From: Sphingomonadales bacterium
GTDB taxonomy: Bacteria; Pseudomonadota; Alphaproteobacteria; Sphingomonadales; Sphingomonadaceae
DNA length: 64,000 bases
Assembly: GCA_025351405.1 (NCBI GenBank)
Contig: JANXVZ010000019.1
Location: forward strand, 1-64,000
Direction: 5' to 3'
Shown: piece after piece, positions 59,426-61,293 of the stretch
Position numbering within the stretch: the stretch's first letter is position 1
Layout of the letters: each line of letters opens with the position of its first letter
Program-made: the position numbers and the translations under genes
Notes under the pieces: generated by a model
What the model saw: only the letters and a program-made list of their open reading frames with translations
Database searches by the model: none
Told to the model about the DNA's origin: nothing

Positions 59426-60802
59426 GTGCCCATCGACATTACCATGCCTGCGCTCTCCCCGACGATGGAGACCGGCACGCTTTCCAAATGGCTGGTCAAG
59501 GTCGGCGATACCGTCAAGTCGGGCGATGTGCTTGCCGAGATCGAGACCGACAAGGCGACGATGGAGGTCGAGAGCATCGACGAAGGCACTGTTACCGAAC
59601 TCGTCGTCGCGGCGGGGACGGAGGGCGTGCCGGTCGGGCAGGTGATCATGCGGTTGAGCGAGGAAGGCGAGGCGGCTGCACCCGCGAAGCAAAACGTCGA
59701 TGAAGCATTCGTGCGGCGCTTGCCCAATGTGGTGGCGGAGCCGTTGCCGACCGAAGCCGACCGCAAGGCGCTGTGGGAAAAGACCGCGCCCGCAGTGGCA
59801 TCGGCCCCTTCCCAACCCGCCGTTCAACCCGCAGCGCCGCAAGCCGACGCCGCACGCATCGCCGTGTCGCCCCTGGCGCGCCGCATTGCCGAAGCGCAGG
59901 GTCTCGATCTCGCCGCCGTGAAGGGCAGCGGTCCCAACGGGCGGATCGTGCGTGCGGATGTCGAAGCGGCGGCGGGCGCGGGGGCGGGAAAGGCACCGGT
60001 TGCTGCGGCCGCCGCGGCACCCCCAGCTGCGACCACGAGCCCATCCGCAACGCCGCCTGCTGCGGCCGAGGAAAAGAAGGCGGCCGCGACGCCGGCGCCG
60101 GCCGTCTCCGATATTCCGCACACGGTCGCCAGGCTCGGTGCGGTGCGCAAGATCATCGCCCGGCGCCTGACCGAGGCCAAGCAGACCATTCCGCACATCT
60201 ACCTCACCGTCGATGTCCGGCTGGATGCGCTGTTGAAGCTGCGCGGCGAACTCAACGCGGCGCTGGAGCCGCGCGGCATCAAGCTTTCGGTCAACGACAT
60301 GATCATCAAGGCGCTGGCGCTGGCGTTGATCGAGGTGCCGAAATGCAATGTCAGCTTCGCCGGTGACAATCTGATCAGCTACACCCGCGCCGATATCTCG
60401 GTGGCGGTGGCGGCGCCGTCCGGGCTGATCACGCCGATCATCGTTGGCGCCGATGGCAAGGCGATGTCGACGATAGCCACCGAAATGAAGGCGCTGGCGG
60501 ACAAGGCCCGCGCCGGCAAGTTGCAACCGCATGAATACCAGGGCGGCACGGCGTCGCTCAGCAACCTCGGCATGTTCGGCATCAAGCAGTTCGATGCCGT
60601 GATCAACCCGCCCCAGGCGATGATCCTCGCCGTCGGCGCCGGCGAAAAGCGGGCGGTCGTGATCGACAATGCGCTCGCCATCGCCACGGTGATGAGCGTC
60701 ACCGGCAGCTTCGACCACCGCGCCATCGACGGCGCCGATGGCGCGGCGCTGATGGGCGCGTTCAAGGCGCTGGTCGAGGCGCCGCTGGGGTTGGTGGCGT
60801 GA
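59426..60802 (+). CDS. pdhC: pyruvate dehydrogenase E2, dihydrolipoyl acetyltransferase
   Basis: 458 residues: lipoyl domain with Lys43 in [16 protein letters not shown], an E3/E1-binding domain (about 142-178, AVSPLARRIAEAQGLDLAAV then GSGPNGRIVRADV), Ala/Pro linkers, and the catalytic domain with GMFGIKQFDAVINPPQAMIL and His431/Asp435 in FDHRAIDGADG. Start GTG 59426 with GGGGAG (59411-59416) upstream; the frame extension into the preceding gene is ignored. Its stop overlaps the first GTG of the DUF559 reading frame. Confidence 0.95.
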   Translation: MPIDITMPALSPTMETGTLSKWLVKVGDTVKSGDVLAEIETDKATMEVESIDEGTVTELVVAAGTEGVPVGQVIMRLSEEGEAAAPAKQNVDEAFVRRLPNVVAEPLPTEADRKALWEKTAPAVASAPSQPAVQPAAPQADAARIAVSPLARRIAEAQGLDLAAVKGSGPNGRIVRADVEAAAGAGAGKAPVAAAAAAPPAATTSPSATPPAAAEEKKAAATPAPAVSDIPHTVARLGAVRKIIARRLTEAKQTIPHIYLTVDVRLDALLKLRGELNAALEPRGIKLSVNDMIIKALALALIEVPKCNVSFAGDNLISYTRADISVAVAAPSGLITPIIVGADGKAMSTIATEMKALADKARAGKLQPHEYQGGTASLSNLGMFGIKQFDAVINPPQAMILAVGAGEKRAVVIDNALAIATVMSVTGSFDHRAIDGADGAALMGAFKALVEAPLGLVA

Positions 60803-61293
60803 CTCTTCCTGCGCCTTTGCCCTCTCCCCTTGAGGGAGAGGGCAACTCGGCGCCCTTGCGCCGAGCGGGGAGAGGGGTTTCCTCCTGCGCACACTTGACG
60901 CTCGACCGCGCCAAACAACTTCGCGTCGACATGACGGACGCTGAAACCAAGCTGTGGCGCATCCTGCGTGCAAAACGGCTCAACGCCTTCAAGCTCAGGC
61001 GCCAGCAGCCGATCGGCCCATTCATTGCCGATTTTGTTTGCCACTCGGTTTGCCTGATCGTTGAGGCAGATGGCTCGCAGCACGCCGACAGCGAAGGCGA
61101 CGCCCGCAGGACAGACTGGCTGCAAGAATGCGACTATCGAGTGTTGCGCTTCTGGAATGCCGACATTCTGCTGCATCCCGATGATGTCGCGCAGGCCATC
61201 CATGCCGCTCTAACCGACCCCTCTCCCCGCTCGCGCAAGACCGCGAGTCGCCCTCTCCCTCAAGGGGAGAGGGAAGAAAGTAGCGCTCCATGA
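60799..61293 (+). CDS. DUF559 (Vsr-like PD-(D/E)XK fold) protein between pdhC and lpdA
   Basis: Core (about 61-144 if started at GTG 60799) reads KQLRVDMTDAETKLWRILRA, FKLRRQQPIGPFIADFV, LIVEADGSQHADSEGDARRT and YRVLRFWNADILLHPDDV. The Asp in IADF and Glu/Asp/His in VEADGSQH are the presumed nuclease residues. GTG 60799 overlaps the pdhC stop, and the frame runs through both flanking repeats; a TTG at 60895 or ATG 60931 would start after the left repeat and may be the true start. The stop overlaps the lpdA ATG. Function unknown. Confidence 0.72.
   Translation: MTLPAPLPSPLEGEGNSAPLRRAGRGVSSCAHLTLDRAKQLRVDMTDAETKLWRILRAKRLNAFKLRRQQPIGPFIADFVCHSVCLIVEADGSQHADSEGDARRTDWLQECDYRVLRFWNADILLHPDDVAQAIHAALTDPSPRSRKTASRPLPQGEREESSAP
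60820..60877. repeat. left double-hairpin repeat flanking the DUF559 gene
   Basis: Two palindromes in a row: CCCTCTCCC/GGGAGAGGG (9 bp, loop CTTGA) then CTCGGCGC/GCGCCGAG (8 bp, loop CCTT), ending GGGGAGAGGGG. It is the inverted partner of 61218-61273. Confidence 0.9.
61218..61273. repeat. right double-hairpin repeat flanking the DUF559 gene
   Basis: Reverse complement of the left repeat at about 50 of 57 positions. The outer hairpin is kept exactly; the inner stem is CTCGCG/CGCGAG here instead of CTCGGCGC/GCGCCGAG, so both sides of the stem changed together and pairing was preserved. It ends 16 bases before the lpdA ATG. Confidence 0.9.

Follow-up and report, generated by a model that had tools for sequence, protein, structure and literature searches.

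A DUF559 nuclease gene bracketed by inverted BoxC/PIT-type arms between pdhC and lpdA in a Sphingomonadales genome

Described repeat and nuclease systems

Among described systems, the REP/REPIN repeats with their RAYT genes bear a close architectural likeness to the element considered here, a DUF559 gene lying between pdhC and lpdA in a 64,000-nucleotide stretch of a Sphingomonadales genome (contig JANXVZ010000019.1, positions 1 to 64,000; "the window" denotes this whole stretch). Both have scattered palindromes and inverted pairs, together with a gene of their own that stands between oppositely oriented copies of the repeat. The window differs in encoding a DUF559 protein of the PD-(D/E)XK type rather than a Y1 tyrosine transposase, and its arms lack the GTAG or CGTC tag at the palindrome foot. 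Neither word occurs on either strand of the two window arms, and the other copies at this site do not share a GTAG that lies immediately beyond the right arm. The pairing of DUF559 genes with such arms is well supported, and the locus is best read as a resident copy of a selfish system in two parts, in which a DUF559 nuclease gene and inverted PIT/BoxC arms work together in a REP/RAYT-like manner (probability roughly 0.6). Four direct observations bear on this reading: the architecture of gene and arms, the conservation of arm structure, the co-occurrence of gene and repeat across genomes, and the presence or absence of the unit at its site in relatives.

In E. coli, BoxC/PIT repeats have been on record since the 1990s. 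Judged by its letters, the arm core is this BoxC repeat of E. coli, for which PIT and TM are other names. Window arms and E. coli repeats share the order of pyrimidine, purine and third purine strands, with the strands matching one another, and the E. coli motif CCCTCTCCC..GGGAGAGGG..GGGTGAGGG has its core in common with the arms. Both occur as single copies and inverted pairs, and both are missing or altered in some strains. The main text of Holder et al. 2015 (PMC4666352, citing Hoyne et al. 2000) describes BoxC/PIT/TM as intrastrand-triplex repeats, counts 23 copies and five inverted A/B pairs in MG1655, records over 260 genomes that have the motif and associates the motif with genome instability. 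According to that text, mobility-providing activities were never found around motif sites, and the words "endonuclease" and "vsr" do not occur in it. The window arms differ in their second loop, which is about 25 nt long and holds a variable hairpin, longer than the 1-6 nt that the ITxF search rule (PMC4666352) allows for a loop.

On the protein side, a profile of the 61-sequence alignment A1 matches among solved structures 3hrl, an endonuclease-like protein (E 1.1e-38), and 3r3p, a "mobile intron protein" (E 6.7e-6). The latter is presumably the EDxHD homing enzyme I-Bth0305I, in which case EDxHD homing endonucleases have a catalytic domain related to that of the window protein. The window differs from them in that its 164-aa open reading frame (ORF) has no long DNA-binding extension, intron or intein, and in that PIT-type arms bracket the gene. 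Passages of PMC3943268 present the EDxHD homing enzymes as a known mobile nuclease family. The Vsr mismatch nuclease shares its superfamily with DUF559: passages of PMC1189080 place YcjD in the PD-(D/E)XK superfamily and report that a YcjD profile finds Vsr. The window protein differs in being unmatched by the Vsr Pfam model (PF03852), which also has no match in its own genome at 1e-10, and Vsr adds little to the prediction of PIT repeats beside DUF559. In Caulobacter, the DUF559 protein VsrA is responsible for an SOS response when a cytosine methylase is lacking and is predicted to act in mismatch repair, according to portions of PMC12907096. DUF559 proteins can therefore be linked to DNA damage in cells; the main text of that article contains neither "palindrom" nor "inverted repeat". 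From a classical transposon the locus differs in that no fixed-offset target-site duplication was found across 109 elements, the RTGA at pdhC-lpdA being explained by the stop and start codons. No paper linking DUF559 to BoxC/PIT was found in the literature searched, a search that left most subscription papers outside its scope and so does not prove the link unpublished.

The unit at pdhC-lpdA

The DUF559 ORF occupies positions 60799..61293 of the forward strand, begins with GTG and continues in frame through both arms. Upstream, pdhC, the gene for E2, ends at 60802 and shares GTGA (60799..60802, forward strand) between its stop and the DUF559 start; where the site is empty, this is the point of direct overlap between pdhC and lpdA. 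Downstream, lpdA begins at 61290, with ATGA (61290..61293, forward strand) serving as DUF559 stop and lpdA start. The nuclease domain (PF04480; 60904..61212, forward strand) is matched at E 3.9e-36 and 123.7 bits against a curated Pfam cut-off of 20.6, and it retains the residues invariant in A1: R12, E19, E59, D61, G62, H65, D71 and R74 in A1 numbering. A second DUF559 match in the same genome scores 29 bits and has no such arms. The Y1 tyrosine transposase model (PF01797) has no match in this genome at 1e-10. A defence-system reading was also considered and set aside, as PADLOC gave no match even with an E limit of 1.

The left arm (60820..60877, forward strand) is a PIT-type double hairpin. 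Its outer hairpin (60820..60842) is built of pyrimidine and purine strands, its inner hairpin (60846..60865) has an 8-bp stem, and a third strand, GGGGAGAGGGG, follows at 60867..60877. The right arm (61218..61273) repeats this arrangement inverted, on the reverse strand, with an outer hairpin at 61251..61273, an inner hairpin with a 6-bp stem at 61230..61247 and the complement of GGGGAGAGGGG at 61218..61228. The 23-nt outer hairpins have the same letters in both arms, and the inner hairpins differ in sequence and pair in both, so the inverted double hairpins around the gene that the preliminary description reported are present as it had described them. Arm-to-arm complementarity is 97% over the outer 30 nt and 100% over the inner 17 nt; folding z-scores of the two arms are -5.7 and -2.7. 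The third strand is an addition to that description: G-rich in each arm, it carries the outer hairpin's purine strand a second time. By sequence, each arm thus has three matching strands, CCCTCTCCC, GGGAGAGGG and GGGGAGAGGGG, in the order pyrimidine, purine, third purine. Among other DUF559 arms there are some, such as those of L106, with a short second loop.

The same design recurs in a survey of 124 arms from 72 elements, which left out four duplicate loci and still includes some orthologous copies. In 81 of the 124 arms the inner stem reaches at least 5 bp, against a mean of 15.7 and a maximum of 21 after shuffling, and these 81 arms carry 36 distinct inner-stem sequences. Left and right outer hairpins are identical in 28 of the 52 elements with both arms parsed, as against 271 of 2652 comparisons between elements, and inner segments are identical in only 5 of the 52. 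From these counts it follows that within an element the outer hairpin stays alike while the inner one varies yet pairs, and the suggestion that arm structure is under selection, made earlier from the two window arms, fits the wider family.

The site was compared across the genus, in which 21 of 24 genomes have LpdA, the window's own genome counted. Seven of the 21 carry the DUF559 gene with both arms at pdhC-lpdA, and one of these (G007) has kept both arms and lost most of the gene; the gene order, whose conservation in all relatives would have suggested an old resident gene, is thus conserved in only part of them. Empty junctions in relatives, which the preliminary description had proposed looking for, were found in 6 of 21 genomes, with pdhC and lpdA overlapping at RTGA in five and at GTGA or TGATG in L135. 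One further junction has a spacer of about 30 nt, and the remaining seven hold other inserts (L123, L124, L126, L129, L131, L132, L134). No arm words occur at pdhC-lpdA in any of the 14 genomes that lack DUF559 there, the seven with other inserts included. The same-site gene is also present in three loci from named contigs (L009, L013 and L030). The expectation that the operon stays translationally linked holds in most copies. All 7 of the 7 filled genomes (one a decayed gene) have a frame that begins at the pdhC stop codon and continues across both arms. In 6 of these 7 the frame and lpdA share 4 to 11 nt, given the likeliest lpdA start; in L127 the frame stops 2 nt short of that start.

The pdhC-lpdA junction is also a slot that takes different inserts. 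In L123, L124 and L129 the inserted ORF likewise has a GTG start that overlaps the stop codon of pdhC. The two ORFs of L124 appear to resemble an antitoxin/PIN toxin pair.

The nine intact copies at the site form one exclusive clade in a quick, midpoint-rooted tree of 191 distinct DUF559 domains (195 of 202 were long enough), the clade being read without branch supports; the decayed copy (L083/L125) was too short to enter. Because these copies form a single clade, the unit most likely entered pdhC-lpdA once, long ago, in an ancestor within the genus and was then lost or decayed in several lineages. The same clade leads to the rejection of two other histories, repeated independent insertion at this junction and recent mobility of the window copy. 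The mobile unit of the preliminary description is accordingly not a recently moving one here. In its own 3.02-Mb genome the outer palindrome pattern occurs at five places, two of them at this locus (backward control, 0), and among the others a single further full unit was seen, L003, which stands alone. A duplication could account for the RTGA on the two sides, although the stop and start codons require it just as well.

DUF559 genes and PIT repeats across genomes

Arms are a general companion of DUF559 genes. At the best-scoring loci found by profile search, pyrimidine/purine hairpins stand on both sides in 26 of 29 loci from relatives and 17 of 30 phylum-wide, and on at least one side in all 59; in control windows the corresponding figures are 0 of 275 for both sides and 16 of 275 for any side. 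The 29 include four copies of the pdhC-lpdA site, which are not independent. The REP/RAYT-like architecture with a nuclease in it, proposed from a single locus, is therefore real and general. Flank alignment agrees: in 89 of 109 loci, one flank aligned with the reverse complement of the other scores beyond the 99th percentile of 274 control windows. This set is biased in part, since it draws on a group of 80 loci that were found partly through words translated from arms and were excluded from the main rate. Of 110 loci, 109 entered this alignment (L039 was short of flank), L078, at a contig end, was left out of every flank test, and 77 of the 79 loci of the biased set that entered the hairpin test were long enough. 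Duplicate or orthologous loci exist (L100 = L011, L104 = L009, L192 = L014), and locus counts are not counts of independent events.

Whether repeats accompany every DUF559 gene, as had been asked, depends on how close the gene is to the family model. The best-scoring loci all have a hairpin on at least one side; repeat-less genes exist and are mostly divergent. In a set of 60 stretches with 61 genes, hand-picked over the score range from matches without a fetched locus, at least one hairpin accompanies 31 of 32 genes at 100 bits or more (both sides in 16), 7 of 10 at 80-100, 2 of 10 at 60-80 and 0 of 9 below 60 bits. Low-scoring, divergent DUF559 genes are mostly without hairpins. Hairpin-less rows make up 22 of the 191 in the tree, most of them mutually nearest neighbours, and the state changes six times, with E. 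coli ycjD set to "PIT" by hand for this count because the strict test gave "no arm" on account of a G in the pyrimidine strand. Arm-like inverted repeats at DUF559 loci are also present in Prevotella and in a Gastranaerophilales genome. The latter (G399, with locus L046) has 59 matches to the E. coli BoxC-core motif, some clustered about 130-320 bases apart.

The repeats also stand alone, as the preliminary description had suggested might be looked for, and form gene-less inverted pairs. A whole-unit pattern finds 65, 9, 26, 29 and 8 places in G019, G002, G017, G050 and G077, with 0 in controls. Many units in G019 stand alone, G017 has several close inverted pairs without room for a gene, several of the matches in G077 are composites of two palindromes, and G002, with its nine units, is without a DUF559 match. 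In G064, different palindromes are paired at a near-constant spacing of 42-43 bases (C10:23466/23509, C15:28996/29039, C32:143580/143622), forming a composite unit of a different kind.

Genome-wide, gene and repeat go together. Among 299 genomes from the phylum, with DUF559 counted at E up to 1e-10 and PIT as the three-strand pattern, 64 have both, 16 DUF559 only, 20 PIT only and 199 neither (Fisher odds ratio 39.8, p 4.5e-32). The association persists within families (Mantel-Haenszel, observed 35, expected 18.8, p 9.6e-13), and tabulated by family the same four classes number 23, 3, 8 and 36. In the 98 nearest genomes, scored with the outer palindrome pattern, they number 46, 17, 5 and 30 (p 1.7e-8). 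Most PIT sites are dispersed, because 2758 sites face 194 DUF559 matches in the DUF559-positive phylum genomes, and when only genomes with more than two sites per DUF559 match are counted the odds ratio is still 15.7. A joint model with two control families gives odds ratios of 37.8 for DUF559, 1.07 for Y1_Tnp and 1.82 for Vsr; taken alone over the 299 genomes, Y1_Tnp has an odds ratio of 0.58 (p 0.052). RAYT and Vsr, considered as movers of the repeats, are unsupported in this model.

E. coli offers a familiar setting for the pairing. In MG1655 the motif lies between ycjD, a DUF559 gene, and fabI, and the 1051-base ycjD region is found at 80% cover or more in 3333 of 5426 E. coli genomes. Presence against absence of ycjD gave no clean comparison and was set aside, since the two strains examined that lack it at fabI (L169 and L170) have another island there, with a TetR regulator and an RND pump. 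A clean comparison came instead from a BoxC pair at hrpB-mrcB, present in K-12 and absent from NU14 and AR_0015, with no obvious duplication. At alx-sstT (L263, L275, L276), K-12 has a BoxC pair, UTI89 a collapsed pair, and BL21 an unrelated insert of several hundred bases and no BoxC. At lldD-trmL (L264, L270), the BoxC pair of AR_0369 (L270) is broken by a short inverted sequence, presumably resembling a Tn5 end scar; from this interruption, hairpins might attract or trap insertions.

Possible working and competing explanations

Under the two-part selfish reading, the autonomous unit would be a DUF559 gene bounded by arms, and lone arms or short inverted pairs would be its dependent units. 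Arms exposed as single strands, for instance at a replication fork, would each fold into a hairpin/triplex shape, which the Vsr-like nuclease would recognise, nicking at or near the arm. Repair or replication might then copy an arm, an arm pair or the whole unit to a new intergenic place, so that the nuclease would be what moves the repeats. Entry at pdhC-lpdA would have kept the operon frame. Extended beyond this locus, the idea is more tentative and falls somewhat short of an even chance: that DUF559 (YcjD-type) nucleases are dedicated movers of BoxC/PIT repeats throughout bacteria, reading shape rather than sequence and spreading their own arms.

Several findings weigh against the two-part selfish reading. 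No consistent fixed-offset target-site duplication emerged when 109 elements were searched with offsets of 0-8 and lengths of 3-9, five loci having been left out; the longest shared word outside the arms averages 4.54 against 4.22 (sd 0.09), a difference not taken as duplication. DUF559 pairs above 85% identity elsewhere are mostly at orthologous sites. Because there is no fixed duplication and alike copies are mostly orthologous, movement would be rare, old or mostly of arms alone. Of the two PITs at K-12 ycjD, one is good and the other degraded, the latter judged by eye, and both lie on the 3' side. Vsr by itself shows a link to PIT, with an odds ratio of 2.71 (p 0.0009; 0.45 within families), and Y1_Tnp is weakly tied within families to the presence of at least 10 PIT sites (p 0.031). 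Sixteen DUF559-positive genomes have no PIT pattern, and 20 PIT-positive genomes have no DUF559 at 1e-10. Ten of those 20, rechecked at E 0.01, gave weak partial matches in four and none in six. Eight genomes with at least 10 sites have no DUF559 at 1e-10, and at 0.01 three of them show weak partial matches and five none. PIT-rich genomes without a match even at E 0.01 include G236 (132 sites), G151 (56), G129 (45) and G358 (30). Such genomes may have lost the gene, may be incompletely assembled (G236 is 87% complete) or may have another mover.

One alternative, itself unlikely, treats the gene as a guest: a free-standing DUF559 homing endonuclease would cut PIT pairs and be copied into them, and the repeats would spread by other means. 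The profile match to 3r3p and the known mobility of EDxHD enzymes, both set out above, lend it some plausibility, and gene-less PIT pairs exist as possible targets, in E. coli included. At pdhC-lpdA, though, a PIT pair without the gene or a remnant of it is seen in 0 of the 14 genomes that lack DUF559, and repeat presence tracks DUF559 presence, which a mere guest need not cause.

Also improbable is a housekeeping role, in which PIT-rich genomes need DUF559 as a structure-specific repair nuclease and the PITs near its gene are regulatory or incidental. The site copies are under purifying selection, with pairwise dN/dS of 0.06-0.55 where computable and dS near saturation, a result that speaks for the two-part selfish reading as well, and the SOS link and predicted mismatch-repair role of VsrA noted above point the same way. 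Such a role leaves the inverted arms around the DUF559 gene itself unexplained, as it does G236, G151, G129 and G358, with their 30-132 PIT sites and no DUF559 match at E 0.01. A hairpin hotspot, where PITs and small accessory genes both gather in intergenic gaps by coincidence, can draw on the other inserts at the pdhC-lpdA junction (7 of 21) but is very improbable and disfavoured, given that those seven inserts have no arm words, that control windows show hairpins on both sides in 0 of 275, that the association holds within families (p 1e-12, rounded) and that Y1_Tnp and Vsr lack a comparable link.

The two-part selfish reading bears on an old problem. A gene family that brackets itself with BoxC/PIT repeats and predicts their presence is a candidate for the missing partner of a long-known, unexplained repeat family, and the question can be tested in E. 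coli K-12, where ycjD adjoins a BoxC copy. If the wider idea of dedicated movers throughout bacteria is true, DUF559 units would make up a new class of element, one that pairs a repeat with an enzyme of restriction-type nuclease fold, and the orphan BoxC repeats of E. coli would gain their missing enzyme.

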